Shown: positions 26,801-47,871 of the stretch, one piece after another
Layout of the letters: each line of letters begins with the position of its first letter
Position numbering within the stretch: the stretch's first letter is position 1
NCBI GenBank assembly: GCA_019915015.1
Contig: JAHBBC010000006.1
Coordinates: forward strand, 1,240,001-1,304,000
Direction of reading: 5' to 3'
Origin: Auriscalpium vulgare
Lineage: Eukaryota > Basidiomycota > Agaricomycetes > Russulales > Auriscalpiaceae
Length of the DNA: 64,000 nt
Position numbers and translations under genes: made by a program
Notes under the pieces: model-generated
Told to the model about the DNA's origin: nothing
The model's input: the letters and a program-made list of their open reading frames with translations, nothing else
Database searches by the model: none

Positions 26801-27149
26801 CGCAGCCCGAGAAGCCGCCGACCACGCTCGTCCGCGCGTGGGCGCTCGTGCGCAAGATCAACAAGAAGCTCGCGACGTTCGAGCGCGGGTTCATACACAC
26901 CGAGGGCTTGCGCGAGCGCGAGTGGTACAGGCATCTCGGCGTCGCGCCGGGCAAGTGGTCTGGTACGTGTGTGACTTGCTGGTCGAGGAGATGTATCGTT
27001 TGCTCATGGTATGCGCAGGGTATGGCGGGACGCCGCTGCCGGGCCTTACGGAGGCCGTCACGATCGAGAAGAACGCGACGCTCGTGGCGTACGAGGCGGA
27101 GAGGCTGCGCGTGGCTATCGAGCAGATCGCACAGCGCATACGTGCGTGA
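23802..27149 (+). CDS. M28 zinc metallopeptidase, PSMA/transferrin-receptor/VPS70 type (copy 1)
   Basis: Type II membrane peptidase like glutamate carboxypeptidase II; in yeast the relatives are Tre1/Tre2/Vps70. A short cytosolic tail is followed by one membrane helix (VVFLRLILFGTAAWIFTTHLLW). Then EDFLDLLQRELNV, a PA domain ([32 protein letters not shown]), the peptidase domain with zinc ligands in [21 protein letters not shown], catalytic/ligand Glu pair in [14 protein letters not shown], and HYHSIYDSERW, and last a helical TfR-dimerisation domain ending [15 protein letters not shown]. Introns are short GT-AG; one inside NHRD|AWVLG is visible at 25373-25420. The dimerisation domain carries a Pro/Thr-rich stretch around 26600-26820. 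All zinc ligands are present. An inverted paralogue sits at 54501-57940. Confidence 0.85.
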
Positions 27150-27558: not shown

Positions 27559-28691
27559 ATGCATCGCCGCTCTAAATTCTACAAACCAGCGGCTCCAGAC
27601 CCGGATGCCGCATCAATACTCTCGGGGACCACACTCGCCTCGGGAGCACAAAGCGATGCGTCGTCCGTGTACTCGGGGCGTACTTACACTCAGTCGACGA
27701 CCTCACTCAAACCTTCTCAGGAACCCGTGGACGCTCTAGCCAAGCTGCGCATGATGGACACCCAATTCATCGTCGACGATTCGTCCAGATACTCCCGGAA
27801 TCTACAGCGAAGATCGTACTGGGCGAACGGCGGGAAAGCAAGGGTACGCGTTCATGTGCCAATGCGCTTTGGTTCGTTCTGCCGCACACTTTATAGGCTC
27901 GGGATCTCCTTCCGAATTGATCGATGCTGCTGTGCCTTATCAAGAGCACTCTCCCCATGGTTTCGTAGGTTATCTAACCCGACGCCAGAATCGTTTAAGG
28001 TGGAATTTGCAGCCCAGAGCGGTTGGCGCATGCTCAAAGCGGGGGTATGGTACACAGGCCTCCTCTATTTGCCTGACACTGATTATCTGTCTTGGTGCAG
28101 TCAGGATCGAAAGTCCCCGATCTGTTTGAGCACAGTGACACCCTGGGCAGCCGCGAGCTGATGCATGTCGGAGTGGCCATGCGCAACGCCACAAAAAACT
28201 ACGTCCTGCGCAACAAACCCTTCTATTCCAAAAGCCTCAACATCGTTGTGCTCGCTGAAAATCCGAAATTCGGCGATGATAGTACGCTGCAGTATAATAC
28301 AGTAAAGGACGTAACGTTACTAGGTCCTCAGCGACTACGCCCCATGGTGGTTCGACGGCAAGCTCGAAGATAACCGGTCCAAAGAAGTACGCCCTGCTAG
28401 CCTCAACATCGTTGTGCTCGCTGAAAATCCGAAATTCGGCGATGATAGTACGCTGCAGTATAATACAGTAAAGGACGTAACGTTACTAGGTCTCAGCGAC
28501 TACGCCCCATGGTGGTTCGACGGCAAGCTCGAAGATAACCGGTCCAAAGAAGTACGCCCTGCTTCACGCTCTGATAAGTTCCAATAATCCTCATACCGGT
28601 CCCTGTGCAGGTCAGAGTCCACTTTGTGTGGCTCGGCGCGGATGTCTGCCCGGGTGACAGTGCGGACTTCGTCAAATATTTCAAGGGGTGA
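27559..28691 (+). pseudogene. Hypothetical gene disrupted by a 166-bp tandem duplication
   Basis: Unknown protein beginning MHRRSKFYKPAAPDPDAAS with a Ser/Thr-rich, likely disordered N-part, then ESFKVEFAAQSGWRMLKAG, VPDLFEHSDTLGSRELMHVGVAMRN, SLNIVVLAENPKF, DYAPWWFDGKLEDNRSKE and a last exon VRVHFVWLGADVCPGDSADF ending at 28691. At least three short introns are needed. The exon coding SLNIVV...NRSKE is present twice in tandem (28233-28398 and 28399-28563). The first copy carries one extra C after the TTACTAGGT segment, which shifts the frame to a stop at 28371-28373; the second copy reads on correctly into the last exon. The allele therefore probably yields a truncated protein unless one copy is skipped. 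No family recognised. Confidence 0.5.
28233..28563 (+). repeat. Tandem duplication, two 165/166-bp copies
   Basis: Copies 28233-28398 and 28399-28563 are identical except for one C (GGTCCTCAG versus GGTCTCAG). The repeat unit starts at AGCCTCAACATC and ends at GTACGCCCTGCT, so it includes an exon end and a splice donor. Confidence 0.93.
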
Positions 28692-33035: not shown

Positions 33036-33549
33036 TCATTTCGCCTTCTTGGCCTTCCGCTAACGAGAAATGTAAGCAAGTATCCGTGGTCAAAAACCAT
33101 CGTCGACGTACCTCCGTCAGCACGGCCTGGATATCTTTTTGAGAGGGCTTCAACGGGGCTGACAGGTCCATGAGCGCAGATACGAAATCTGGATATCGTC
33201 AGGCACAAGTCCGCGAACGTATATGGTAGAAAGAGCTCACCGCCTTTATTCTTTTTCTTCGGCAACTCAATTTTGTGGGTCTCGAACCACTGCTTGAGTT
33301 CGTCCTTCGTGAGAGAAGACAAGGCGGCACGGATCTACAGGTAGATCTATGGTGAGCACAAAGGAAAGTAATACATCTGGAAGCGACGTACCGCTTCGTC
33401 GTTCTCGGGCGAGGTCGGGACATCATCGGCAGAGGAAGGCTGCCAGCGCATGATGAGAGGATGGACAACCATGTGAGAATATGGGTACTTACCGGCGCGG
33501 GAACCTTCGTAATCTTGCGTAGCTGTTCGACGATGTTCGATAAGTACGC

Positions 33550-34398
33550 TGATGAGATGAACCCTGGGGGAGGCCCCGGGAACGTCGATAGAAATGGAGG
33601 GAGCGAGCAGCCAACCGCTGGCCCAAGAGGTAGTGGGTCGGAGGAAGAAACCCAAGATCGCGACCGTGCCCCGAACAAACCACCCAGGACCCCGCGGGTC
33701 CTGCCCTCGTCCTGCGGCCCTCTCTCTCTCTCTCTCTCCGCTCCCATCCGACCGTCGCACGTTGCGTCTCTTCCCACACTACTCGGTGCGACCCTCCCGT
33801 CTGTCGCCGCCGGTCCGTCCTAGTTGCGGAGTCGCCCTTGCCGTCCGACCGTCCGACCTGTGTCCCCGCGCTTGTACCGTCCGAGCCGCTATCCTGGAAT
33901 ATAAACGTCAGTCATAAAACCTACCACACTGTATCACTCCAGTCTGTGGTTGAGTCGGGGCAGCGTAGCCCGTGGTATCGCAAAGGTGGCGCGACCCGGA
34001 TGTCGCTACGGCTTCCTGGTTTAAGGCATCGTGTCGGGCTGGTCTGGCGGTGTCGCGTCGTGCGGTGCTCTCTGTGAAGCAGGAACGAAAGGTGTAGTCT
34101 CGGGTGTAGGCCCAAGGTCCAAAAGTGTCCCTACAACAAGTCGAATCGCGTCTATATACCGCTGCTTCGTCAGCTCTTCCCACGCGTCTGCGCTCCTACG
34201 CGTCCTACCAAGTTCCGCGCCCGACCGTTCCGACTCCCTACCTCGGCTCTCCGTCTCCTCCCCAGACGCTCGCTTGCTTTGTGCTGTCCCGTGGTCGTGC
34301 CGGTGCCGCGACGCCTGTGGGGCGTCTCGGGGGTGTGTGTCTTGGTGTAGCGGTGTGATTGGTCCGTTTCGGTGCCTGTAGCGCTGCGGGTCCCATCA
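33550..34398 (-). repeat. 3' LTR, 849 bp
   Basis: TG...CA ends; on the minus strand it starts TGATGGGACCC at 34398. It contains a (TC)9 run. Same sequence as 47067-47849 except for 66 extra bases at about 34272-34337. Confidence 0.95.
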
Positions 34399-34414
34399 TC
34401 CTCCCCCCAACTGA
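34399..34414 (-). other. Polypurine tract of the 3' LTR (copy 3) plus hairpin
   Basis: Minus strand TCAGTTGGGGGGAGGA directly abuts the 3' LTR start, the position needed for plus-strand priming. A perfect hairpin CCGACTG/CAGTCGG lies at 34419-34436. Confidence 0.85.
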
Positions 34415-34543
34415 GCTACCGACTGCCCTCAGTCGGCGAATCCCCGGATGGCTCCTCCTGATAAAGGCTCCCTCGCGCCGTCTCGATGAGTCGTCAGGTA
34501 GCGTCGCACCGCCCGCCCGACCAACCCCCCCCCACACACCATC

Positions 34544-35771
34544 ATGACCTGGTCTCCCCACACGTACCGTCGCGGTACTCTCTTGCTGTACCACCTGGGT
34601 CGGGCCCCCAGCGCGGACTTCCCGCTCGCAGCAGCCGCCGAAGCGATCGAATCGCGCGAGCGTTGGGCACAGGAGGTGTTGGCTGTCATCGTACGGTTCC
34701 CCTCTTTTCCGCCCCGTTGTCGCGCTAACCGTCCGCTCCCATCGGCTGTAGGAATCCATCACCGATTCCGACCCCAGGCTGATCATCCCCCTCGCCGAGC
34801 GCATCCTCATGCCGATACTCGAGAACGCCATCCTCCTCGTACCCGAGGTCGAGGATCGCTTCCGCTCGTGGGCGGGGCGCTTTCTTCGTCCCGCCCCGCT
34901 CCCTACGACCGAGCTGCACCCGTGGACCTCCGTTGTTGATCGGGTCGACCTACTTGACGCCCCCAAGGTTCGGCTGACCGCGACGCTGGTTGAGGAGAAC
35001 TTTTGGGTCGTGTTTCGCAAACGCGGGTGCTCGGTCGCGTCGTACTTGCGCGAGCTCGCCATTTTCCATGCCGCCATCCCCGATGACCGTCCCCTGGGCA
35101 ACCAGACGTGGGTCGCGTACGTCCTCCGAGAGGCCTTGGAATGTTCCGCGCTCTCCATTCGCCACTCGCGTGGTGGGACCGCTTTCCTTCCCGACTACGT
35201 CGCCCGCGAGTCGACCGCTTGGCCCATTTCGCCCCCCACGCAGTACGGTCGCAACCTCGGCGGACTGGGTGCGCGTCTTTTAGCTCGTTTCGAGGCCGTG
35301 TACCGCGAGACCGTCGAGGAGCTCGCTGGGGCTACGGAGAACGTCGCCAATCTGCAAGCCCTTTGGGCCGACGCTCCCTACCTGTTAGCCATCGTTCGCG
35401 ACCCCTGCCTCTCCCTCGAGCACGCAACCCGACTCTTCCTGGAGTACGCAGTGACTGCGGCATACGTTCTGCGCCATTTCCCAGCCGCCCCGACCGAGCC
35501 CGACCTTTACACGAACAACCTCTTGGTGACCTTTGTGCGCCATCGTGTATTGTCGGGGCTCCCCGCCTTGCCCGCCGGTGATGGTGTCGGCTTGGTTGAC
35601 GACGATGCCGGCGGTGTCGATTCCGACGAGCAGATGCAGGGCGATCCCGTGGACGCCGGGGGTGTCGGGGATAATGTCGCTGTGATGGAGCGTGTGGTGG
35701 TCGGCGATGTCGGCGCGATAGTGGATTACCGCAGCGATAGTGATAGCGACATCGCGAGCAGTCGCGAGTAG
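34544..35771 (+). CDS. Antisense cargo ORF A of the LTR element
   Basis: Two exons (34544-34690, 34752-35771; GT-AG intron of 61 nt) give 388 aa. The protein is mostly helical, starting MTWSPHTYRRGTLLLYHLG, with ERWAQEVLAVI, LAERILMPILENAILLV, SVASYLRELAIFHAAIPD and RLFLEYAVTAAYVLRHFP, ending in an acidic Asp/Gly/Val-rich tail (VDSDEQMQGDP ... SDSDSD). No known domain, signal or membrane span recognised. It is transcribed opposite to gag-pol and its start lies 130 bp from the PPT and the LTR, so the LTR may act as a two-way promoter. The intron remains because it is on the strand not used as genomic RNA. Confidence 0.68.
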
Positions 35772-36058
35772 TGTACCCCTTCTGTAAATGGTCTCTCCGG
35801 CCGCCATGAATCGCACAGAACTGTGGCCCCTGATGTCTCATAGCAATGATCGTCGCGTTTCGCTGCGTGGGCGACTCATAGCGTCGCGCGGTCTCCGACC
35901 GTGTTCTGATGGATCGCGGATTCGGTTGCGCGTGGTCGGCTCTGACTTTGTCTTGTCCCGCTCCCTTCTGGCTACTTGCTCCTCGTGCACCCTGCGCAGG
36001 CTGGTCACCCGTCGCCGAGAAAATCCCTATCTTTCTCCTCGTCGCTCGTGACTGGCCA

Positions 36059-36074
36059 TCCTCCCCCCAACTGA
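36059..36074 (-). other. PPT-like motif copy 2 plus hairpin
   Basis: Plus strand TCCTCCCCCCAACTGA with a hairpin TGCGCCTG/CAGACGCA (one mismatch) at 36079-36098. It lies between antisense ORFs A and B, about 120 bp before the start of ORF B. Confidence 0.7.
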
Positions 36075-36193
36075 AATCTGCGCCTGTCCTCAGACGCAAA
36101 TTCTCCGGCCAAACCCCGGCATATCGGGTCGCGGCGGGTTTCCGACGGCCTACATAACGAGTGCGGTCGGTGCGTGCGACCCAGCCTCCGACC

Positions 36194-37375
36194 ATGTCGT
36201 CCAGTTTCACCCTTGAGGCGCGTGCTTTCGCCCTTGTCGGGCTACTCCTCACTCCGCCCGCGATTGACCTGGAGACCGCTCCCGTCGAGACCCTGGTTCT
36301 GGCTCGGGAGGAGTGGGGTCGCAAGGTTGCTACGCTCTACGTAAGTCCTCGCGCTGTCGTTGCGATCCCCGCTCACGTCCGTGTCGCGCTTATCCAGAAT
36401 GAAGTGTATAACACTGCGAAGCCATCCGTCCTTCGTCTTGTCCAGGCAATTGTCAGCCCCGTCTTCGAGACGCTGTTCACTGTGTCCCCCGAGTCGCGCG
36501 CCGCGTTTGCTGAATGGGGTGGTAACCTCATCAGCGACCTCGCGCCTCCGACGTCCGCTCCTCTCGACCCGACATTTTCGGTTCGCCCGATCGCTGGATT
36601 CACCTTCCCGAACAATCGCGACCACTCTCGCCAGCTCTCGCGCCTCTGCGAGGGCGCCCTGTGGGCCGCATTTGAGTCGGGCCGCACGTCCGTTCCCCAG
36701 TACCGTCGCAGCCTTGGTGAGCTCTGCTTGGCCGCTCATCCCACCGGTCGCGGAGCGGGCATCGACGCGACAGTCCACGCGGAGTTCATTGCCGGCATGA
36801 ATGCTTGCGCTTCGGCTCTTCAGCGCCTGAACGGCGGGGAAGAGGCCCTCCTGTCCGAGGTCCATCGCCTCTCCTACTCGACCACCGGCATATCCCTCCC
36901 CGACCTCCTGCGTACCCTCGCGCACCCTCTGTCCGATACGCTCATTACCCACACCACCGAGACCGTGGCGACCTTGGCGTCGATCTACGGCACCATCGCG
37001 CAACTTGCGCGACCCGACGACCGCCGCGCGCGTGGTCGCTGGGGTCCGTATGCCGACGCCTTTGACTCTGCGGATGGGTTCTTGGAGGCCGCCGCTGCCG
37101 CGTATCTGCGCGACGCCTTGCAGTGGTCCACCACTATCGACAGTCTTCATGCGCGCACCGCCATTGAGAGCGCTATCCTCGCGTCGAACCTCCCCACCGA
37201 GTTATTGGCCGACGTCCACAGCGACCCGACGATGTTCTTGGACGAGGTCGTGACGTTCCGCGCAGTCCCGATGGGTTGGCAAAACGCGCACCGTGGTCGT
37301 CGAGGCGGGGGTGCGACTCGGGGGCGCCTCACTCAGCAGGGGCGTATCCCGCGTGACGATCCTACCACGCTGTAG
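36194..37375 (+). CDS. Antisense cargo ORF B of the LTR element
   Basis: Uninterrupted frame of 393 aa from MSSSFTLEARAFALVGLLL to a basic Gly/Arg end (HRGRRGGGATRGR). Helical through most of its length (PSVLRLVQAIVSPVFETLFTV, AFAEWGGNLISDLAPP, ALQRLNGGEEALLSEVHRLS, HTTETVATLASIYGTIAQLA). The RGG-like tail suggests nucleic-acid binding. No family recognised. The ATG at 36194 is preferred to the one at 36161 by context (CCGACCATG). A long frame also exists on the opposite strand here but has no protein-like pattern and is probably a GC-rich shadow. Confidence 0.66.
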   Translation: MSSSFTLEARAFALVGLLLTPPAIDLETAPVETLVLAREEWGRKVATLYVSPRAVVAIPAHVRVALIQNEVYNTAKPSVLRLVQAIVSPVFETLFTVSPESRAAFAEWGGNLISDLAPPTSAPLDPTFSVRPIAGFTFPNNRDHSRQLSRLCEGALWAAFESGRTSVPQYRRSLGELCLAAHPTGRGAGIDATVHAEFIAGMNACASALQRLNGGEEALLSEVHRLSYSTTGISLPDLLRTLAHPLSDTLITHTTETVATLASIYGTIAQLARPDDRRARGRWGPYADAFDSADGFLEAAAAAYLRDALQWSTTIDSLHARTAIESAILASNLPTELLADVHSDPTMFLDEVVTFRAVPMGWQNAHRGRRGGGATRGRLTQQGRIPRDDPTTL

Positions 37376-37863
37376 CGTCGTCGCGCTGTCGGAGCGTCGG
37401 GAGATAAAGGGAAAGAAAGAGCCCGCGTTAGTGTAGTGCCTTGTGCCCGCATGTACGTCGTTGAATGCCTCCCAATACGAGTATTGAACTTGCGACGCGT
37501 TACCCGCTTGTGCGACGCCAGTGTACCGTGGTCGCGCCCCGTGGGAGGGGCGGGCGCCAACGACTTGTGCCATTTCGCTCGTGCCAGCGACACGTGCCCG
37601 CCACGCGGCGTCGGAGCCGCGCGTGGCGTCCCGCACCGGTCCGGGGAACGTCGCGGGATCAAATCAACGATCGCTGATCAGATCGCGGATCGACCCGGCA
37701 TCGTGGGCGCTCGGAGGCAAACCGGCGCTCTGGCCGGGCCACGCGGCCGGTCGCTCCCACGCACGCGCCATTGTTCGTGCGCCTGCGGCGAAGTCGCCGT
37801 CGCCCTTCTTCCCTCTCCCCCCTCTCACTCGCTCCCTCACCCGCCCCCTCGATTCCTCTTGCC
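37376..37863 (+). promoter_or_regulatory. Leader/spacer between antisense ORFs B and C
   Basis: About 490 bp. The last 80 bp before ORF C are a C/T-rich run (CCCTTCTTCCCTCTCCCCCC), a common fungal promoter feature just upstream of a start. No other element called. Confidence 0.4.
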
Positions 37864-39869
37864 ATGGACACTGCTTCCCTCGCCGACACCACCGCCACGC
37901 GTACCATGCTGGAGACCCAGCTGGGCCTACTCGAGGCCATGGCGCGCGACGCCACCGCCGAGGCGCAGCTCGTCTTGTTGCGGCCGCAAGTCCGCCAACT
38001 CCTGGTGCGCCCGCTCTGTTTTGCCTGCAAGGATCGCTCTGACCTGTTCCCCGCTTGTGCCGTCCCAGCGTTCATACTACGACGCCCGCGATCGCGGTGT
38101 GGTGTTCCCTGCTGCGGTGCGCGCGCGGTACGACGCTCTCGACGACGCCGTGCGACCGCCGACCGCGCCCCGCGATGACGGAGACGACGAGGACGAGGAG
38201 GTCGCCCCCGCTGCTGTCCCCCCGACCGCCCCCAGCGGCGCCGTCCAGACGGGCGCGCCCGCAGTGGAGGCCTCTCCAGCTCCTCGTCGTCGCCCCAAGG
38301 TGCGTCGCTGGCGCTCGGCCTCCTTCTCTGCTAACCTTCCTTTTGCAGGCTCGTCGGGTGCCTGCCAACCGCGCGGAGGTTGTGCTACCCCGCGTCGCTC
38401 CGCCCCCGCCTCCTCCTTCTGCACGGAGCGAGCGTCATGCTGCGCGCAGCGCCCCGTCGACCGCGCCGCCCTCGTCGAAGCGTGTTGGCAAGCGCCGTGC
38501 TTCCCGGTCCCCCGTGCCCACACCTCCTCCTCGTGCACCGTCCCGTTCGCGCTCCGCCCGTGGTCGCTCCGCCAAAAGGGGCCGACCTACCCCGGCGTCG
38601 GTCGCCTCCAGCCCGTCTCGCCCCCGCTCCCCGTCGTCCTCGCCGACCGCCGGCCTTGACGACTCGCTGTCGGAGGCGGTCGATGAAGATGGCGACCCGA
38701 TGTTCCACGCGTCGGACCGTCGCCCCACGAACACGGAGCGCTACGCCGGTGAACGTCTCAAGGTGAGTCGCACCATGTGCCACGGTGTCCGTCCTTACTC
38801 ACGCCTCCCCGGTTGTAGACTGCCACCCGTTGCGCCCGCTGCGAGCACCACTTCAAGCGTGGGCCAAAACGCTGCGAATTCAAGCCGCACTTGCCGTCCA
38901 AGTGCATACGCTGCCGTGCGCAGCGGAAGTCCTGCACCGGCGCCGTGCTCGCGGACGGCACGCGACCACGCGCTCCTCCTCCTCGTGCCAACCGCGGACG
39001 CGCTGGCCGCTCGCGTGCCGCTTCCCGCGGCCCTCGGTCCCGTTCGGCTCTTCGCGCCGCCACGGTGTCTTCCACCGCCCGCTTGCTCGAGGAGTTGCTC
39101 GCGTCCGCCGACTCGATGGGTGGGTTTCCCCACTCGTCCCACCTGCCTACTGCTAACTTCCCTTGTCTCTTCCACAGATCCCCCGCGACGTGCTCGCGAG
39201 CTGCTGGCCGAGGTTCTGTCGTCTGTCGACGCGGACATCGGCCGGTTCGAATCGCTCACCGCTGCCGATCGCTTCCCCGACAACGCCGACTCCATCGCCC
39301 TCGTCCAGGCGGATCTGGACGCCAGTCGGACGACCCTCCTGCTATGGCCCTACCGCCACGACCGCCTTCTCCTGCGCTGGGCGCAGCTCACCCATCGGTA
39401 CGGCGCGCGGGACACTTCCGACGTTCCGGGCTCCGACGTCGCCCCTTCCCCTTCTCCTCCCGGTTCCCCTGTCGCCGGCCCCAGCGGCCTCCACGCCCCC
39501 GACTCGCCCGCCCTCGCGACGATCCCACCCAGCTCCGTCGCGGCTTCAACGTCGGGCGACCCTGCCGACTCTGGCGAGGAAGAAGACGAGCTCGACACTG
39601 CCGTCAAGTCGCCGGAGCCCGACGATGACGAGGAGGACGACAGGGACTCCGCCGTTGGCAGCCCCCGCCCTGCTGGGCCATCGGGTAGTGCGATCGAGGA
39701 GGACGAGGAGAACGAGGTGGACGAAGCGGGTCCTAAGGCGGCCGACCCGGACGACGACGCGGATGAAGAGGGCGCCCCGGCGGCTGGCGAGGACGACGAA
39801 GATGACGAGGACGAGGAGGGTAGTGACGCGGCCGCGGAGGAGGTCGCCGACATGGACGTCGACGAGTAA
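37864..39869 (+). CDS. Antisense cargo ORF C: six-cysteine zinc-cluster protein
   Basis: Five exons (37864-38004, 38069-38299, 38349-38762, 38819-39119, 39178-39869), GT-AG introns of 49-64 nt, give 592 aa. The N-part has a helical start (MLETQLGLLEAMARDATAEAQLV), then an Arg/Ser/Pro-rich basic stretch (SRSRSARGRSAKRGRP) expected to be nuclear. Exon 4 codes for CARC-(10)-C-(9)-CIRC-(6)-C, that is CX2CX10CX9CX2CX6C, close to a fungal Zn2Cys6 DNA-binding cluster with wider spacing. The C-terminal 130 residues are very acidic (runs of D and E), like an activation or histone-binding tail, ending VADMDVDE. A consensus AATAAA lies at 40004-40009 after it. Function inferred only: DNA-binding regulator of the element or of host chromatin. 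Confidence 0.68.
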
Positions 39870-40118
39870 GTTACGGTTTTCCGCCTTTCTCGTGCCGCTC
39901 CTGTACTATACGTGTACCATATTCGCTCCGGTCTCGTTCTTTCTCGTGTATTCTGGTTAATTTCTTGACTCTCGTGTTCTGTATGCTTGTACGTGCTCGC
40001 CGAAAATAAAGTTTCAGTGTTCCCCCACCACAAAGGGAGAAAGAAAATAAGTTAAACCTGTAATCTCAGTGTACTGTCCGTGGTGTATCTCCTTAGCGTG
40101 TTACCATATCTAATCGCG
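39870..40118 (+). terminator. 3' flank of ORF C with polyadenylation signal
   Basis: AT-rich stretch with GAAAATAAAGTTTC at about 40002-40015, containing AATAAA on the plus strand, consistent with an end for antisense transcripts before they enter pol. Confidence 0.45.
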
Positions 40119-40134
40119 TCCTCCCCCCGACTGA
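40119..40134 (-). other. PPT-like motif copy 1 plus hairpin, just after pol
   Basis: Plus strand TCCTCCCCCCGACTGA (minus: TCAGTCGGGGGGAGGA), next to a 7-bp perfect hairpin ACTGCTG/CAGCAGT at 40136-40153. Located 33 bp past the pol stop, where a normal element would have its PPT and 3' LTR. Confidence 0.7.
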
Positions 40135-40166
40135 AACTGCTGACCCCAGCAGTCGTATAGGGCCTG

Positions 40167-43100
40167 TCAGGCGACACTGCCGTCTTCCGCGCTGTTGCTC
40201 GCGGTGTCCGACGCGTCGCTGTCTATGCTGCGTGATTCCTGTGCTTGGGCGTCGGGGTCAAGCTGTCCGAGAAGCTCGTTTAGTCGTCGGGCGGGTATGT
40301 CGATGAACTCCGGTAGCGGAGGAAGCGTGATGTGTGGTCGCGCGAAGTACGGAATGACGCGAAACTCCGCAGTGGGCCTGTCAAAGACCGCCCCGTGCAT
40401 ATCGCACAGGACGTACGGTCCACCACGTCGCCGCCCAATTACGATGAACGGACCGTCGTAGCGAGGCAGCATCTTGCGGTCGAGTGATTTCTCGAACTGC
40501 GTGAAACGTACCAGGACAAGGTCGCCTCGTTGGAAGCCGTAGTTCTTGATCGACGCTTCGTGGTCGCGCTCGAAAATCAGCGCATCCTGCCGCCGCTTGT
40601 CGAACACTTTCGAGTGGAGCGTACGAAGCTGGGTGCGGCGCTTCTGAAGTGCGACAGCCCGTCGCGCGATTAAATCCGTCGTCGACAGTATCGAGTCGGG
40701 CGGTGGTAGGAGATACGTTGCTTCTACGATATCGAGGGGCATCAATGCCTGCGTGCCGGTCGCCGCGAAGTAGGGGGAGCAGCCCATACGCCTGCGCGTT
40801 GTGATCCTGTCCGCCCAGAATACCGAGTGTGCGACCGTGGCCCACTTGCTCGCGTCACCGTCGGCGGCCTTGTACAGGGCCTGTCGGACGTCGAAATGCG
40901 ATCGCTCTACGATTCCGTTGGATCGCGAGTTATAGCCTGAGATGCGGATGTGCTGCACGCCGTAATCTTCTTCGAGGTGCTTCATCGCTGCTAGGTACGG
41001 CGTCCCGTTATCCGTTACGATTTCCCGGAGCGCTCCCCAGCGACAGAGTACGTCCTCGAATATCCATCGCGCGAGCGACTTGGCATTTTCCTGTCGCAGC
41101 ATGCGCCACTCTGGGAAATGCGAGACCGAGCACCTTCCTTGTACGATGTATTTGAAACCTCGAGAAGCCGGCATGTGCATGGTATCAGCGTACATCTTGG
41201 CGAACAGCGGCGCCGGGGTCGCGACCGTTGGGGGAATGAGCACGTGCTTGACCTGTCGCACTTGGCAAATATGGCATGATCGTACAAACCATGCGACGTC
41301 GCGATCCATGTACGGCCACCAGAAGCGTTCGAGGAGAAACATCTTGGTCGGGTACGCGCCGCGATGTCCGACATCGTCGTGACAGGCCTTCAGAGCCCCT
41401 ATGCGGCGTTCCGGGGGTAGGACAAGTTGGTGGCGGCCCTGCGGCTCCTTGCGAAAGAGACTCGTGCCGTCAAGGAAGAACTCGGTGCAGTACCGCAGGA
41501 ACGTCGCGTACTCTTGGTCGGAAAAGCCATCCGGCCGCTGGAGCGTGTTGTGCCATTCCCGAACTCGCCCAATTCGTTCGTCGGCTTGCTGCGCCTTGAT
41601 GTCGCGGTCGACGGCGTCGTAAGACATCTCCGTCGGGGCGGCCTGGGTGACGAACGTCGCGATCGCGGCCCTTGGGTGGTCGCGTGGGTCCCCCGACCGT
41701 GGCCTTGTACTGCGCGGTACGTATGCGTTCACGAGGTGAATGAATCCATACATCGCGTCGACCCAGTCCTCGAACCCGTCGTGCTCGTTTTCTGCCACGT
41801 CGCCCGGTTGGCGCCTTCGTCGTGACATTCCGTCAGGCCCATGAAACAGGCCGGGCACGTGAACGAGGACGAAATGGAACATTAGAATGGCGATGATCCA
41901 CCTATTCATGCTGGCCGAGGGTTCAATATCAGGGTTGTCGAGCATGCCCTTAATGTAGCGTGCGTCGACTTCCACGACCATGTTCCGCACTCCGATGAGA
42001 TATATCTTCAGCGCGCGGAGCGCCCGAAACAGGCCGTATAATTCTAACTTTGGTTGCGAAAAACGCGCCTCGCGATCGTTCAACGCGATGGACCCAAACC
42101 GTGCGTACCGACGCTTCTTGCGACTCTTCGGATCGTCGGCGTCAGCCTGGCACAGCAAGAACCCGACCGCAATAGGAGACGTATCGACCGCGAGGATAAC
42201 CGGTTCGCCCGACTGATAGTCGATCGGTTTCAGGGCTGGCGACTCCAGCAACGCGCTTTTGAGATCTTCCATAGCTGCTAATTGTTCCGCTCCGAATTCG
42301 AATGGCACATCTTTCCTCGTAAGGTGCGTGAGCGCATGCGCGCGATGTGCGAAATGGTGGATGAAGATCCTCAGCACCCCGACCGTCCCGAGGAACGCCC
42401 GCACATCGGACAGGTCTTGACATGGCCCCCAATTCACAATCTTAGCCACCCGTTGTTCGTCGGGGATCCGCCCGTCCCTCGTGCAGCGGTGTCCGACCAC
42501 GACAATTTCGGGCGCGCACAAAATAGTCTTCCAACCCGAAAACGTCCCGCCCGAATAACCCATGCGCTGTACGACGCGGTTGAGATTCTGAAAGTGTTCC
42601 CAGACAAATCGGCGGATGCCCTCGTTGTCAGCGATTGTCTCGTACTTCCCCTGGTCGTCCTTGTATTCGCTCGCGGGGCCCTTGACCGGTACGTCATCAA
42701 TAAACGGTATCGTGACGTGAGGAATTTCCGGCCTCAGGATATGTGTGACGTCGTCGTGGAAGATAGGCACTGAATTCGTCCAGCCCATCGGTAGTGTTAC
42801 CAACCGCAGCGCGCCGTAAGGGGTCTGGAACGTAGTGAGGTCGCGCGACGCTGGGTCCAACGCTCGCTCGTCGTATCCGACGTACAGATCCAGCATCGCG
42901 CCGCAAGCCCGACCCGCGAATTGCTCGGCCAGTTGGTCGGTAAACGGGGGCACCCCGGAATGAGCTATCGTGACGGCGTTTAACGGCTCCAGGCTGTGCA
43001 CTATGCGCAGGCTCGTTCCATCCTTTTTGACCACGCAGAACCACCGCGACCTATACGACGAATTGGATGGTTCGTAGACGTTCGCGGCCAACTTCCGACT

Positions 43101-43955
43101 GATTTGTTCCATGACTTGGTCGTAGATTCCCGGCGGGATCGGTATGTTGCGTTGTACCCATGGCGTGTGCGGTACGACGGGTATCGTGACCGGCGGAAAG
43201 AAATCTTCGCGGAAGTGGCCTCGCTCGCTGTCGTCCCACGCGAACGCACCGTTGTGCTCGCACATAAAATGGTGCATCAGCTTGCGTTCCTCCTTCCACA
43301 AGAAGTCCCCCTCGTGAACTACGTCGAATTGGTCGCGGCGCTCCTCGGTGTAACGCCCCGTCGGCCGGAAGTCAGGGGGCTTCGTCGGTAACTTGGGTAG
43401 TGTCGCTAGCGGGTCGCCTCGTATGTCGCGTATGATTCTGAACTGCCCAGGCAAGTCGGCTAGTACTGGCTTCACTTTTAGGTGGGCTGGCTTATACTTT
43501 TTCTTGGTCGCTGCGAAAACTGCGCGTGCCCGCGCGCTGCTTGGCAGCGACTTACAGTCGCGAAATTCCTGTTCGCCTGCGAACGATGGCACCCCGGCTG
43601 GGGCGAGAAAGAAAACGGGCGCCGATGGAACGTCTAAAGTCGCGTCGGTCGGCCGATCAAATATTGGAGGGGTAGACTCTGGGAGATCGCAAAATGATAA
43701 ATAGGTTGCTCGTAACTCTTCCGGCGAACTAGAGGAGTCGAAGGGGACCACGGCTTCCACGGAAATAGGATCGGCGGCGTCGCCCGTGAACTCGAGGACG
43801 AGCGCCACTTCCGCCTGGTCGTCCAACGACGCCTCTAGAGCCGAAAATCCCTGCGCTCGCCGGCGCTCTGAACGATGCGACGCGAGCCTCGCTCTACTGT
43901 CGGGACGGTCGCCGTCGCTTGAGTGTTGGGATCGGTGATCGTGATGGTCTGTCGC
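40167..43955 (-). CDS. pol: Pol: reverse transcriptase, RNase H, integrase (-1 frame to gag)
   Basis: The frame is open from 43955 to the stop at 40167 and overlaps the end of gag in the -1 frame. There is no ATG near its beginning, so it is probably made as Gag-Pol by -1 frameshifting; no classical slippery heptamer was found. RT marks (residues counted from 43826): LDLYVGYDE (313), TFQTPYGALRLVTLPMGWTNS and the catalytic FIDD (about 375). RNase H: VILAVDTSPIAVGFLL, LELYGLFRAL, VEVDARYIKGML. Integrase: zinc-binding CHICQVRQ, then the D-D-E residues in YADTMHM, IVTDNGTPYLAA and NGIVERSHF, followed by a GPY/F-like module (RYDGPFIVIGRRRGGPYVL). All catalytic residues look intact. No chromodomain follows. 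Confidence 0.92.
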   Translation of the reverse strand, partial: ATDHHDHRSQHSSDGDRPDSRARLASHRSERRRAQGFSALEASLDDQAEVALVLEFTGDAADPISVEAVVPFDSSSSPEELRATYLSFCDLPESTPPIFDRPTDATLDVPSAPVFFLAPAGVPSFAGEQEFRDCKSLPSSARARAVFAATKKKYKPAHLKVKPVLADLPGQFRIIRDIRGDPLATLPKLPTKPPDFRPTGRYTEERRDQFDVVHEGDFLWKEERKLMHHFMCEHNGAFAWDDSERGHFREDFFPPVTIPVVPHTPWVQRNIPIPPGIYDQVMEQISRKLAANVYEPSNSSYRSRWFCVVKKDGTSLRIVHSLEPLNAVTIAHSGVPPFTDQLAEQFAGRACGAMLDLYVGYDERALDPASRDLTTFQTPYGALRLVTLPMGWTNSVPIFHDDVTHILRPEIPHVTIPFIDDVPVKGPASEYKDDQGKYETIADNEGIRRFVWEHFQNLNRVVQRMGYSGGTFSGWKTILCAPEIVVVGHRCTRDGRIPDEQRVAKIVNWGPCQDLSDVRAFLGTVGVLRIFIHHFAHRAHALTHLTRKDVPFEFGAEQLAAMEDLKSALLESPALKPIDYQSGEPVILAVDTSPIAVGFLLCQADADDPKSRKKRRYARFGSIALNDREARFSQPKLELYGLFRALRALKIYLIGVRNMVVEVDARYIKGMLDNPDIEPSASMNRWIIAILMFHFVLVHVPGLFHGPDGMSRRRRQPGDVAENEHDGFEDWVDAMYGFIHLVNAYVPRSTRPRSGDPRDHPRAAIATFVTQAAPTEMSYDAVDRDIKAQQADERIGRVREWHNTLQRPDGFSDQEYATFLRYCTEFFLDGTSLFRKEPQGRHQLVLPPERRIGALKACHDDVGHRGAYPTKMFLLERFWWPYMDRDVAWFVRSCHICQVRQVKHVLIPPTVATPAPLFAKMYADTMHMPASRGFKYIVQGRCSVSHFPEWRMLRQENAKSLARWIFEDVLCRWGALREIVTDNGTPYLAAMKHLEEDYGVQHIRISGYNSRSNGIVERSHFDVRQALYKAADGDASKWATVAHSVFWADRITTRRRMGCSPYFAATGTQALMPLDIVEATYLLPPPDSILSTTDLIARRAVALQKRRTQLRTLHSKVFDKRRQDALIFERDHEASIKNYGFQRGDLVLVRFTQFEKSLDRKMLPRYDGPFIVIGRRRGGPYVLCDMHGAVFDRPTAEFRVIPYFARPHITLPPLPEFIDIPARRLNELLGQLDPDAQAQESRSIDSDASDTASNSAEDGSVA

Positions 43956-46900
43956 TCATCGACAAAGTTGCGGACTATACTCCCAGTGAGGACGTCGAAG
44001 GGCCTCCCTAGCAGGATGTCGTAGGCCGGAGAACGTATGACGTGTATCTGTACGTAGAGCGTGATGTCGCCTAGCTTTAGCGCTACGTTGCGGGCTAGCC
44101 CGAGGGATTTGTCAATCGAGCCGTTGGCGGAAAGCATGTCCAGTGTGATCGCGGGATCATATGCCAGGCCGAGAAAATGACAAACGTCTTCGGACATGGA
44201 GATGACCTGCGACCCTGGATCCAGGATAGCCTCAATGTGCGCTTGGTTATCCACCAAGGGCAGGACCGCTCGCAATGCCGATGACTCTTTTGCGACCACC
44301 AGCGGGGCCGGTTTCTCGGCCGAGGCACTCATCAACGTCAGCATCGGGTCGGAGAGCACCAGCGACCCGCGAGGCGGCACCGCTGGCTGGCTCTGTATGG
44401 CCTGCAAGAACGACGACGGCATGTGCGAGGTGTATCCCCGCGCTCGATCTCTCTCCTGCTCGCGCTCTTCCTCGTACAAGTCGCCGGGTAGGTCCGACCA
44501 CTCCTTGGTAGGCCCTTCCCCTTCCGCTACGACCGTGTGTAGGACCGCTACTGGGGAGTCCCCGCTGGACAGTACCGGGGCCGCTATGCGTCGCGGGGTG
44601 ATAGCGTATCGCAACTGGGAACGTACTTCTGGCGCCAGCGACAGTAACTCGCTCTGTGTCAGAGTGACGGAAGTCTCCATCGCGCGGCCGTAGACTTCCT
44701 TCGCGACTTCCTCACTATGGATGGGCGTGTCCTTGGTATAGGCGGCGACTGGTTTCTTCCCTTTGTCTGGTCGGGACGCGTCCCCGACGGGTATGTAGGT
44801 TGCGTCGGGTACGGAGGCGAAAGGATGGATGGGTTCCGGCTCTATCTCCTCGGGGTCCTTCTCGACTGTCGGCTCACCCTCGCTCTCTTCCCTCGCCGCT
44901 TCCGCATCCTCTGGACCCTCGGGCACCGCGAACGTAACCTTCGGCCGCTTTGCCGTGAATTTCGACGGAGATATGACCACCTCAGGGACTAGCCTCTTGG
45001 ATCGCACTCTCTCCCCGGGCAGCGGACCGATTGGTGGCGGTAACTCTCCGTTGCGAATCGCTGCCTCCCTTCGGGCCCGGCCGGCGTTCCTCTGCTCCTT
45101 CATGAGGGTTAATACCGCCATCTCTTGACGCAACTCCTCGAGTCGCTCGTCGTCCGTCAACGGCGGGATTAACTGGATGAGCCCGGCGACCGGCTGGTCG
45201 CGCGCAGGTCGGAGCGGGTAGTCGGTGACGGCGATGGGACCTGTCGATGCCAACATCATTGTTTCCGTCGCGTTGCCCGCGACTCTGGCCGCGACGTCGG
45301 CGCGCAGCCCGGACGGGTCCGTGCGATAATATTCGTCTACCCTCGCTTGAATCGGGCCTAGCCCAAATGGCACTGGCCTGCCGCTCTTGAGTACCACCTG
45401 GTTCATCTCGTTGCGTACCACCCGCCCCGTCGCTATGTAGTCTTGCAGGACGAGGCATTCGCGGATGAAGTGCTCGGGACCGTTGCAGAACGAGCACCTG
45501 GCGCCATCCTGTCCCGGGGCCGGGCGAGGACGATCGAAACGAGCGGCCGACGCCATCATCGGGCCCGGTGGCCCGCGCGTGTACGCCGACGGCTGCGGGC
45601 CTGCGTTACTCATCCCCATCGCATCGGCTCTCCCCGCGCTATACGCTTTCGCGATCTGCTCGGCCGCCTTCTCCATCAGAGCGGCAAACTGCTCGACCTT
45701 GATCGCAGGTTCTTCCGCCTTGACGGCCACGGGTTGGGACAAGTCGGCCAGACCCGCGGGGACGCTGAGCCCTGCCGATCGCGGGGTGCTCGACGTGCCG
45801 TGCAGCACGTACCGCGCCGCTTCCACTATTTGGTCCATCGGGTACGGGCCGTCGCGATCGTGGTCGGGATACTTCAGCTGCAGCCGCTGCTCTATCCTAT
45901 CTTGCAGTCCCTTCTGAAATCCACGCAAGAAAGTGTAGTCGCGGTCGCGCTCGGAGATACGCTGCCGCCCTATAAGAAACTGGGAGATCGCGTAGAAACC
46001 GCGATAGTATTCCCCAACGTCGCCAATGGTCGTGACGCCTCGGCGGGCTGTCTCGGCGACGAGCTGATCGAGGTCGCCCATCGTGTATTTGCGCTCCTCG
46101 TCCGCTCCGGGGTATAGCGCTATGATCGCGGTCACGAACTCTTCGAACGTCGCATTGCCCGCGTACTGGGGTCGGCTTTGCCACTGGTCTGCTGTAAGGA
46201 CGTCCAGGTATCGCGTGGCGTGCTCCTTCTTCTCCTGGTCCTGGCCGTCCTCGATACCCGCCCGCGTGAACAAGTGCCTCAACTCCGCGAAATAGCGTTG
46301 CAGCTCGCGCGGCTTAAGATTGTCGAACTTAGGGGCTTGGCGGTCGCCACGGGTAGGCATCGGAGTGGCCATGGTCGTGCGACGGGGTAAACGCGATAAC
46401 GGAGTACTGGATTGCGATGTGGGAGAAACTGGTCGGGAAACCTGTGCGGCCGCTCCACGCCCGTCTCCTGATAAACCTCCGTGCGTTCCGACGTTTCCGC
46501 GGTCGGAAGCCAAGCGGTCGCTGTCGGAAGGCACCTGTGCCTCGTCTCGGTCCTCATCAATCAGCGCAGCCACTTCGGGCTCCGATTCCGACGGGGTAAG
46601 CTCCGGCGACGACCATTGTCGCATCGCTCCGCCAGTCAGCAACTCGATCGACGCCTCATTGACGTCCAGGAGCTCCTGATGGAGGGACCGTCTACCATCC
46701 CAACCGTGCTCCGACTCCTCCGATTGGACAGGGCCTGCCTCCGCGTTTTGATCGCCGGGAGCCTCGCCCGCAGCATCCCCGTCGTTCTCGGGTGCTGCGT
46801 CCGACACACCCGATGCCTCGCCGTCGTCGTTTTCGTTGTCGCCCTCGGCGCCTTCAGCGCTGGAAGTCGCGCGCTCTTCGTCCGACGCCCCACCTTCCGA

Positions 46901-47017
46901 CGATGCGAGGTGTCCTGGCATGGACTCCGCCCGCTGACTGGTCGAGTACTCCGACGGGGCCGATCGGGGCGGTGCGCGTCGAGTGGGCTCTACGATAACC
47001 CTCGCCTTTGGTGCCAT
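43835..47017 (-). CDS. gag: Gag-protease polyprotein
   Basis: Single frame of 1,060 aa starting 50 bp after the 5' LTR. The N-part (residues 1-230) is acidic and disordered. A capsid-like helical region follows (KFDNLKPRELQRYFAELRHL ... FLRGFQKGLQDRIEQRL), then one zinc knuckle CSFCNGPEHFIREC (CX2CX4HX4C) that binds genomic RNA. After a long linker, a retroviral-type aspartic protease sits near residues 900-1010, with the active site in AILDPGSQVISM and the ILLGRPF strand. This is a long Gag for a fungal element. The stop at 43835 is overlapped by the pol frame for about 120 nt. Confidence 0.9.
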   Translation of the reverse strand: MAPKARVIVEPTRRAPPRSAPSEYSTSQRAESMPGHLASSEGGASDEERATSSAEGAEGDNENDDGEASGVSDAAPENDGDAAGEAPGDQNAEAGPVQSEESEHGWDGRRSLHQELLDVNEASIELLTGGAMRQWSSPELTPSESEPEVAALIDEDRDEAQVPSDSDRLASDRGNVGTHGGLSGDGRGAAAQVSRPVSPTSQSSTPLSRLPRRTTMATPMPTRGDRQAPKFDNLKPRELQRYFAELRHLFTRAGIEDGQDQEKKEHATRYLDVLTADQWQSRPQYAGNATFEEFVTAIIALYPGADEERKYTMGDLDQLVAETARRGVTTIGDVGEYYRGFYAISQFLIGRQRISERDRDYTFLRGFQKGLQDRIEQRLQLKYPDHDRDGPYPMDQIVEAARYVLHGTSSTPRSAGLSVPAGLADLSQPVAVKAEEPAIKVEQFAALMEKAAEQIAKAYSAGRADAMGMSNAGPQPSAYTRGPPGPMMASAARFDRPRPAPGQDGARCSFCNGPEHFIRECLVLQDYIATGRVVRNEMNQVVLKSGRPVPFGLGPIQARVDEYYRTDPSGLRADVAARVAGNATETMMLASTGPIAVTDYPLRPARDQPVAGLIQLIPPLTDDERLEELRQEMAVLTLMKEQRNAGRARREAAIRNGELPPPIGPLPGERVRSKRLVPEVVISPSKFTAKRPKVTFAVPEGPEDAEAAREESEGEPTVEKDPEEIEPEPIHPFASVPDATYIPVGDASRPDKGKKPVAAYTKDTPIHSEEVAKEVYGRAMETSVTLTQSELLSLAPEVRSQLRYAITPRRIAAPVLSSGDSPVAVLHTVVAEGEGPTKEWSDLPGDLYEEEREQERDRARGYTSHMPSSFLQAIQSQPAVPPRGSLVLSDPMLTLMSASAEKPAPLVVAKESSALRAVLPLVDNQAHIEAILDPGSQVISMSEDVCHFLGLAYDPAITLDMLSANGSIDKSLGLARNVALKLGDITLYVQIHVIRSPAYDILLGRPFDVLTGSIVRNFVDERQTITITDPNTQATATVPTVERGSRRIVQSAGERRDFRL

Positions 47018-47044
47018 CGGGTTGCTGAGCGGTTGACACTAGCC

Positions 47045-47062
47045 CCCTCGCGGTGGGCTCCA
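47045..47062 (-). other. tRNA primer binding site candidate
   Basis: Four bases inside the 5' LTR the minus strand reads TGGAGCCCACCGCGAGG. TGG complements the CCA end of a tRNA and the GC-rich rest fits an acceptor stem. The tRNA was not identified. Confidence 0.6.
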
Positions 47063-47066
47063 CAAA

Positions 47067-47849
47067 TGATGAGATGAACCCTGGGGGAGGCCCCGGGAAC
47101 GTCGATAGAAATGGAGGGAGCGAGCAGCCAACCGCTGGCCCAAGAGGTAGTGGGTCGGAGGAAGAAACCCAAGATCGCGACCGTGCCCCGAACAAACCAC
47201 CCAGGACCCCGCGGGTCCTGCCCTCGTCCTGCGGCCCTCTCTCTCTCTCTCTCTCCGCTCCCATCCGACCGTCGCACGTTGCGTCTCTTCCCACACTACT
47301 CGGTGCGACCCTCCCGTCTGTCGCCGCCGGTCCGTCCTAGTTGCGGAGTCGCCCTTGCCGTCCGACCGTCCGACCTGTGTCCCCGCGCTTGTACCGTCCG
47401 AGCCGCTATCCTGGAATATAAACGTCAGTCATAAAACCTACCACACTGTATCACTCCAGTCTGTGGTTGAGTCGGGGCAGCGTAGCCCGTGGTATCGCAA
47501 AGGTGGCGCGACCCGGATGTCGCTACGGCTTCCTGGTTTAAGGCATCGTGTCGGGCTGGTCTGGCGGTGTCGCGTCGTGCGGTGCTCTCTGTGAAGCAGG
47601 AACGAAAGGTGTAGTCTCGGGTGTAGGCCCAAGGTCCAAAAGTGTCCCTACAACAAGTCGAATCGCGTCTATATACCGCTGCTTCGTCAGCTCTTCCCAC
47701 GCGTCTGCGCTCCTACGCGTCCTACCAAGTTCCGCGCCCGACCGTTCCGACTCCCTACCTCGGCTCTCCGTCTCCTCCCCAGACGCTCTGTCTTGGTGTA
47801 GCGGTGTGATTGGTCCGTTTCGGTGCCTGTAGCGCTGCGGGTCCCATCA
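47067..47849 (-). repeat. 5' LTR, 783 bp
   Basis: Matches the 3' LTR but lacks 66 bp near 47788, in the U3 (promoter) part as read on the minus strand. It should drive gag-pol transcription leftwards. Confidence 0.95.
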
Positions 47850-47871
47850 GCGCGCCAGCCGCGGACCTCAT

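Follow-up and report, generated by a model that had tools for sequence, protein, structure and literature searches.

An LTR retrotransposon with three antisense, probably spliced genes that recur across its family and appear to be exchanged in blocks

The 64,000-nucleotide stretch of basidiomycete DNA analysed here (the window; contig JAHBBC010000006.1, positions 1,240,001 to 1,304,000) contains on its minus strand a Ty3/Gypsy-type long terminal repeat (LTR) retrotransposon of 14.3 kb (33550-47849). The 5.7 kb between its pol gene and its 3' LTR hold three plus-strand genes, A, B and C (34544-39869), here called the cargo, which lie antisense to gag-pol. An earlier note, made from the sequence alone, had described three long plus-strand genes in the 5.7 kb before the 3' LTR of a minus-strand element, and the mapping of domains and genes bears this out. 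Pfam places Asp_protease_2, RNase H and Integrase_H2C2 above their cut-offs on the minus strand and RVT_1 below its own; with that match included, the order protease, reverse transcriptase (RT)-RNase H, integrase is that of Ty3/Gypsy elements (Metaviridae), and a polypurine tract (PPT) at the LTR and a candidate primer binding site accompany it. The two LTRs are identical over 783 nt, and the sole difference between them is a 66-nt gap in the right one. We call this copy W and its own subfamily Fam1; L-numbers denote other loci fetched from the same genome, of which 51.6 Mb in 96 contigs were searched. The features of W are:

33550..34398, minus strand: 3' LTR, 849 nt, TGATG...CATCA
34399..34436, minus strand: PPT1, polypurine tract adjoining the 3' LTR, with hairpin stems 34419-34425 and 34430-34436
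34544..35771, plus strand: gene A, 388 aa; exons 34544-34690 and 34752-35771, intron 34691-34751
36060..36098, minus strand: PPT2 with hairpin (one stem mismatch), in the A-B interval; W-L015 exchange boundary
36194..37375, plus strand: gene B, probably 374 aa, paralogue of A; exons 36194-36340 and 36398-37375, intron 36341-36397
37660..37800, no strand: conserved non-coding B-C spacer; W-L018 exchange boundary
37864..39869, plus strand: gene C, 592 aa; exons 37864-38004, 38069-38299, 38349-38762, 38819-39119 and 39178-39869; six-cysteine cluster in exon 4, acidic C-terminus
40120..40153, minus strand: PPT3 with hairpin, within the 3' untranslated region of pol; right-hand limit of exchange for W-L018 and for W-L015
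40167..43277, minus strand: pol (RT, RNase H, integrase)
43835..47017, minus strand: gag with aspartic protease
47052..47062, minus strand: candidate primer binding site, starting with TGG, 4 nt from the LTR
47067..47849, minus strand: 5' LTR, 783 nt, with a 66-nt gap relative to the 3' LTR

A has one intron, after codon 49, and C has four, in phases 0, 0, 0 and 1. The earlier note gave lengths of 388, 393 and 592 aa and two spliced genes; its lengths and introns for A and C stand, but it took B, whose frame is open with or without splicing, as unspliced and overlooked a 57-nt, phase 0 intron at the same codon as that of A in the three subfamilies modelled (codon 49, or 50 for A of Fam3). B is probably spliced as well, giving 374 rather than 393 aa. 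Because W's B as a query matches A proteins of the subfamily Fam2 (E 4e-6), and because A and B align at 20-23% identity and share their intron position, we consider the two genes paralogues. The intron set of C is common to Fam1 and Fam2, with lengths in W, L018, L015 and L001 of 64, 67, 52 and 54 nt for intron 1 and 49, 63, 71 and 53 nt for intron 2; lengths vary also by non-multiples of three, and the spliced frame remains open. It is from these conserved introns that we infer the spliced structure of A, B and C.

Substitutions in the cargo concentrate at third codon positions of the plus frame, which argues that coding on this strand is not due to chance. Changes at codon positions 1, 2 and 3 number 39, 19 and 150 between two B alleles (proportions of differing synonymous and nonsynonymous sites, pS and pN, of 0.53 and 0.06) and 108, 87 and 269 in C, and the introns of B and C are mostly as divergent as the exons or more so. 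Within Fam1, the ratio of nonsynonymous to synonymous rates (dN/dS), calculated by the crude Nei-Gojobori method (NG86) for pairs with enough changes, is 0.07 for B alleles, 0.19 for A, 0.21-0.33 for C and 0.04 for pol; between-subfamily values, which are near saturation, and near-identical pairs (such as L015-L020), which have too few changes, were not used. A, B and C are under purifying selection.

Searches allowing up to two mismatches found the acceptor side of A's intron at 46 Fam1 sites and the spliced junction of A's exons nowhere in the genome. In the three copies for which both LTRs were read, the LTRs differ at 0 (W, gap aside), 2 and 1 positions, and since these pairs differ by only 0-2 substitutions the copies are recent. 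With the intron kept at 46 sites and in recent copies, A was therefore copied from RNA in which introns were unspliced. For Fam1 this strongly supports the idea, put forward in the earlier note, that the introns persist because the cargo is antisense to the genomic RNA.

Nor is the cargo a one-off nested insertion that no other family member carries, the outcome that the earlier note had set against its own reading. Among the loci examined, A, B and C occur in the same order and orientation in Fam1 (the window, L015, L018, L020), Fam2 (L001) and Fam3 (L006), where only the cysteine cluster and the layout of frames identify C. The genome protein searches score the best candidates, so that counts are lower bounds; among the best 121 of 450 for RT, identity to W's pol is 95-100% in Fam1 (43 rows), 88-90% in Fam2 (10), 80-81% in Fam3 (43), 77% in one row, 74-75% in Fam4 (12) and 73% in Fam5 (12). 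The 77% row, L016, looks like a truncated or cargo-deleted relative of Fam3 and is excluded from counts. All six Fam4 and Fam5 loci fetched for this comparison (L009-L014) are without cargo, their elements extending 1.4-1.9 kb beyond the stop of pol. The whole 320-aa A query (the exon-2 part) has at least 33 genome matches at 93-100% identity, 32 of the 33 free of stops, and weaker rows number at least 10 at 33-35% and at least 58 at about 25-35%, the fetched examples of which belong to Fam2 and Fam3. Co-occurrence with this pol, a check that the earlier note proposed, is seen at 30 of 43 Fam1 B loci, a count that omits further short B rows at the same loci and rows below 85% identity: A, C and pol matches lie close by. 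Conversely, 33 of the 43 Fam1 pol matches are paired with a B locus within 9.5 kb. The cargo is thereby present in most family copies, by count in Fam1 and by examples (L001-L008) in Fam2 and Fam3. One copy, at C2:3054453, has A without B or C; the distances do not support a clean PPT-to-PPT deletion there. At L060, a Fam3 copy has a Fam4 element lodged where its gene B starts.

The cargo evolves and moves separately from pol. Amino-acid identity of W to Fam2 and Fam3 is 81% and 73% over the part of pol compared, against 31% (Fam2) and 26% (Fam3) in A, 30% and 22% in B and, in Fam2, 34% in C. Within Fam1, W and L018 have synonymous divergence (dS) of 0.007 for A, zero for B and 0.013 for pol, against 0.90 for C, and 29% of residues differ between their C proteins; W and L015 have dS of 0.055 in A and 0.115 in pol but of 0.91 in B and 1.0 in C. 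Breakpoints were mapped in these two pairs: sliding comparison places steps at about 37.8 kb (B-C spacer) and 40.1 kb (PPT3) for W-L018, and at about 36.08 kb (PPT2) and 40.11-40.13 kb (PPT3) for W-L015. A further mosaic segment in W-L015, 86-94% alike, lies inside pol at 41.25-41.95 kb, away from any tract found, and exchange is therefore not confined to the tracts.

Cargo appears to be exchanged in blocks, near-identical backbones being found with four C classes and two B classes; neither this exchange nor the repeated tract-hairpin boundaries figured in the earlier note. Classed by match identity, which for C2 is the whole basis, the 43 Fam1 B loci comprise B1 with C1 (3), C2 (10), C3 (4) and C4 (11), B2 with C4 (8), and 7 others, mostly incomplete; C4 matches score for the most part identically whether the locus is B1 or B2. 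Copies also differ in U3 (the LTR segment matching window 34110-34335), of which there are two types, 66% alike. U3a is found in 22 of 22 readable B1 copies, W included, and U3b in six of seven B2 copies, the exception being L056 with U3a; the count omits L026 (partial), L028, L048 and L050 (no B found), L032 and L053 (no LTR match), and also L051 (U3b, contrary) and L054 (U3a), in which B is more than 9.5 kb from pol and the link doubtful. A is about 98% alike between copies of the two U3/B types. Co-evolution of U3 with C was considered and rejected, as U3 tracks B.

A 15-nt tract, TCAGTTGGGGGGAGG on the minus strand, occurs three times in W, adjoining the LTR (PPT1), in the A-B interval (PPT2) and, with one base different, behind pol (PPT3). 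The pattern was taken from the window itself, where 0.35 copies are expected and none of 100 shuffles reaches three; the genome has 195 occurrences, and none of the reversed control. PPT2 lies between A and B-C in Fam1 and Fam2; Fam3 (L006) has PPT1 and PPT3, and its A-B interval showed no tract. A tract-like but weaker match at L001:4747, with 2 mismatches, is not among the tracts given here. In the cargo-free Fam4 and Fam5 a diverged tract lies near the LTR, and a second tract-hairpin (L009:8410, L012:8416) falls inside pol, in a position like that of a central polypurine tract. The loop of the hairpin beside the tracts is four bases long, and 9 of 18 rows have AGGA there on the genomic strand. 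Of 119 cells in 17 distinct rows, 111 are paired (2000 shuffles: mean 85, maximum 101), a share that is partly selection because 14 of the 18 rows were chosen by a scan for the stem, and four were located by stem letters (PPT2 of W and of L015 in Fam1, PPT3 of L015, and PPT3 of Fam2). Pairs 2, 4, 5 and 6 have changes on both sides, that is, they covary. The stem scan found no perfect stem for Fam1 PPT2 in six of six loci.

The protein search that the earlier note suggested for A-C, here of 5.8 billion proteins with about 8000 candidates scored per query, returned as relatives outside the genome three for A and one for C, all annotated in Auriscalpium vulgare (Russulales); as only these turned up, spread beyond the genus is unproven. 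The C relative, P0004 (595 aa), is 95% identical to W's C (class C1) from end to end, which implies identical exon choice by an independent annotation, and is 69% identical over 536 aligned positions to the C of L018, a C3 allele from the same genome as W. The A relatives (P0003, 88% over 215 residues; P0001, 83%) are less close, so A and C tell no single simple story of descent. A host protein (DUF498 domain, NDUFAF3-like) matches its A. vulgare counterpart P0005 at 164 of 169 residues, and the window's host and A. vulgare are therefore closely related; a wide divergence of the hosts, from a host gene at 80% identity, was rejected, the gaps being two unspliced introns. On the thin ground of one C protein, the comparison of C suggests that the C allele classes are older than the split of the window's host from A. 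vulgare.

The six-cysteine cluster of C is conserved in three subfamilies. A fold search with a 60-residue model of it (predicted local distance difference test score, pLDDT, 60) gave only four PDB matches, Pho7 twice, GAL4 and PPR1, all weak (E 1.9-8.6); the PPR1 match is a Zn2Cys6 domain by its PDB title, and those to Pho7 and GAL4 we take to be such domains too. By this model the cluster weakly resembles Zn2Cys6 DNA-binding domains. Sequence searches of the PDB gave best E values of 0.15 for the A/B profile and 1.3 for the C profile. The tails are acidic in A and basic in B (last 35 residues) in three subfamilies, and acidic in C in Fam1 and Fam2; cysteine cluster and charged tails would fit nuclear regulators, and prove nothing.

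On balance, and with moderate confidence, we favour a reading in which A, B and C are an accessory module of the whole family: the element's own genes, antisense and spliced, whose products are likely nuclear regulators and whose blocks are swapped between lineages. The three genes are predicted to be transcribed antisense to gag-pol, from a putative antisense promoter, and spliced. Genomic RNA would cross them in antisense and, because it would carry no splice signals for A-C, reverse transcription would preserve the introns. C would be a Zn2Cys6-like DNA-binding protein with an acidic tail, and A and B helical paralogues with acidic and basic tails; together they would most likely set the element's own transcription or shield the element from silencing. 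The module runs from PPT3 at the end of pol to PPT1 at the LTR, PPT2 separating A from B-C in Fam1 and Fam2, and blocks between these boundaries appear to be exchanged among element lineages, so that one backbone comes with different C or B-C alleles.

Several observations weigh against this. Constraint on C is loose in places, with pN/pS up to 0.74 in C-terminal windows of W-L015. Incomplete Fam1 copies occur: 13 of 43 B loci are without A, C or pol nearby, and 10 of 43 pol matches are unpaired with B. None of A, B and C has a Pfam match above cut-off, relatives are few among the best 8000 or so candidates for each of A and C, and the AlphaFold model of A (five rows) is so poor (pLDDT 36) that no fold can be offered for A and B. 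The Zn2Cys6 pattern is C-x2-C-x6-C-x(5-12)-C-x2-C-x(6-8)-C, and C departs from its x6 with x8-10 between cysteines 2 and 3.

GC-rich sequence yields many long open reading frames (ORFs) on both strands, and the region might act as antisense RNA only, its frames being by-products; we regard this as extremely improbable, as it is already contradicted by the plus-frame third-position changes, by dN/dS below 1 and by C introns that change length while the spliced frame stays open. Passive carriage of captured host genes or of a nested transposon, to which spliceosomal introns like those of host genes would point, is quite improbable: the dN/dS values refute it, capture as a remote origin remaining compatible with them, and the cargo sits in the same place in three subfamilies with PPT copies at its ends. 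Moreover, terminal repeats of a second transposon were not noticed, none of the own-genome rows that were placed is recognisable as a stand-alone host relative, and no relative outside A. vulgare appeared among the best candidates of each protein search. Ty1 p22 is a self-limiting copy-number regulator, and A-C could likewise limit the element rather than activate it or counter silencing. One genome harbours several C alleles side by side, which would be expected were each to escape repression by the other, and the U3 type tracks the B allele; on the other side, C is not tracked by U3, and the link of U3 with B is broken by L056 and may reflect plain descent of two lineages, so we hold self-limitation to be rather unlikely.

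How blocks are exchanged is a separate matter. We give roughly even chances to ordinary recombination, whether by template switches among RNAs packaged together or by ectopic exchange between genomic copies, with tracts and spacer as mere conserved anchors and the extra PPTs passive. The mosaic segment inside pol and the B-C spacer boundary, which has no PPT, speak for it, as do the comparable mosaics reported for Tf1/Tf2 and Tosmo, with pol above 96% (PMC10085805). Against it, the right boundary falls at PPT3 in both pairs mapped and the left boundary of W-L015 at PPT2. A bolder extension of the accessory-module reading, doubtful in our estimation, is that during reverse transcription each tract primes its own plus-strand segment and segments of two co-packaged genomes can be joined at the tracts, while selection keeps a pool of C alleles predating the A. 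vulgare split, which would serve as interchangeable factors of specificity against silencing by the host or against rival elements.

Other observations concern integration and the surroundings of W. Immediately outside the 5' LTR, the bases read N-C-G-N in all but two (L046 and L047) of the 34 Fam1 copies readable there, 36 having been fetched (L021-L056), and for these 32 of 34 a background CpG frequency of 0.092 gives P of about 3e-31; left flanks agree in 3/4 copies of Fam2 and 3/3 each of Fam3, Fam4 and Fam5, and two copies with both ends read have a 4-bp ACGC duplication. CpG-targeted integration looks like a lineage trait unrelated to the cargo. W itself has ACGC on the left (33546-33549) and GCGC on the right (47850-47853), and its unequal flanks and LTR gap may reflect either a mutated duplication or a recombinant of two copies. 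The element is flanked by inverted repeat arms (24719-26969 and 54686-57052; similarity 76-83%, separation about 28-32 kb). These are probably host paralogues in inverted orientation, which by eye we presume to be of beta-glucan synthesis type. The window also has a near-exact tandem duplication with a unit of about 166 nt (28233-28563) and, at 7441-10334, a pair of long ORFs on the plus strand, of 589 and 372 aa, that by eye resemble a protease-plus-zinc-finger DNA transposon.

Antisense genes of LTR retrotransposons have so far been described mainly from plants, and the earlier note was right that extra, sometimes antisense ORFs are known from a few plant and fungal elements; Retand, Grande and Boty have antisense ones in this position. 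HBZ of human T-cell leukaemia virus (HTLV) is spliced. The aORF-3R elements have antisense ORFs between pol and the 3' LTR (Grande gene23, RIRE2, Retand TRP28 ORFs, PvRetro13), and so does W; a further likeness is presence in most copies and a suspected nuclear or DNA-binding role (PMC7264820, PMC11963269). For Grande, antisense promoter expression and a nuclear product are reported. Over the clusters of one study, 104 antisense ORFs are reported, and more than one per element may occur there (PMC11963269). Most Retand clusters carry a TRP28 ORF, whereas A-C are without a Pfam match. HBZ, an antisense nuclear regulator in a retroelement, is named as the model for such genes in that study (PMC11963269), and compares with our element only in how it may work. 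Among fungi, Boty of Botrytis cinerea, an LTR element with the antisense gene brtn (as cited in PMC8365987 and PMC7264820), is similar but has one gene and an ascomycete host.

Unlike the aORF-3R elements, the element described here combines three probably spliced genes of conserved structure, two of them paralogous, with PPT-hairpin boundaries and allele block exchange, in a basidiomycete host; our search of the open-licence PMC literature found nothing on three spliced antisense genes per element, on hairpin-tagged tracts as block ends or on this element. Selection on the genes is measurable, and near-identical backbones differing in one block amount to natural swap experiments, so that the role of antisense genes becomes directly testable. 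The covarying hairpin beside polypurine tracts, which cargo-free relatives share, offers a further clue to how plus strands are primed in this lineage. The block swaps suggest a mobile element whose set of accessory proteins can be exchanged. Hairpins at block ends recall integron gene cassettes, whose end hairpins are the substrate of a site-specific recombinase, by analogy only: Pfam finds no recombinase in A, B or C, and integrase-type matches only in pol. Another parallel is with Tf1/Tf2 and Tosmo of fission yeasts, which have near-identical pol and a divergent block elsewhere and for which the available part of the report describes no antisense genes (PMC10085805), whereas here it is the accessory genes that form the exchanged blocks, with boundaries at PPT copies.

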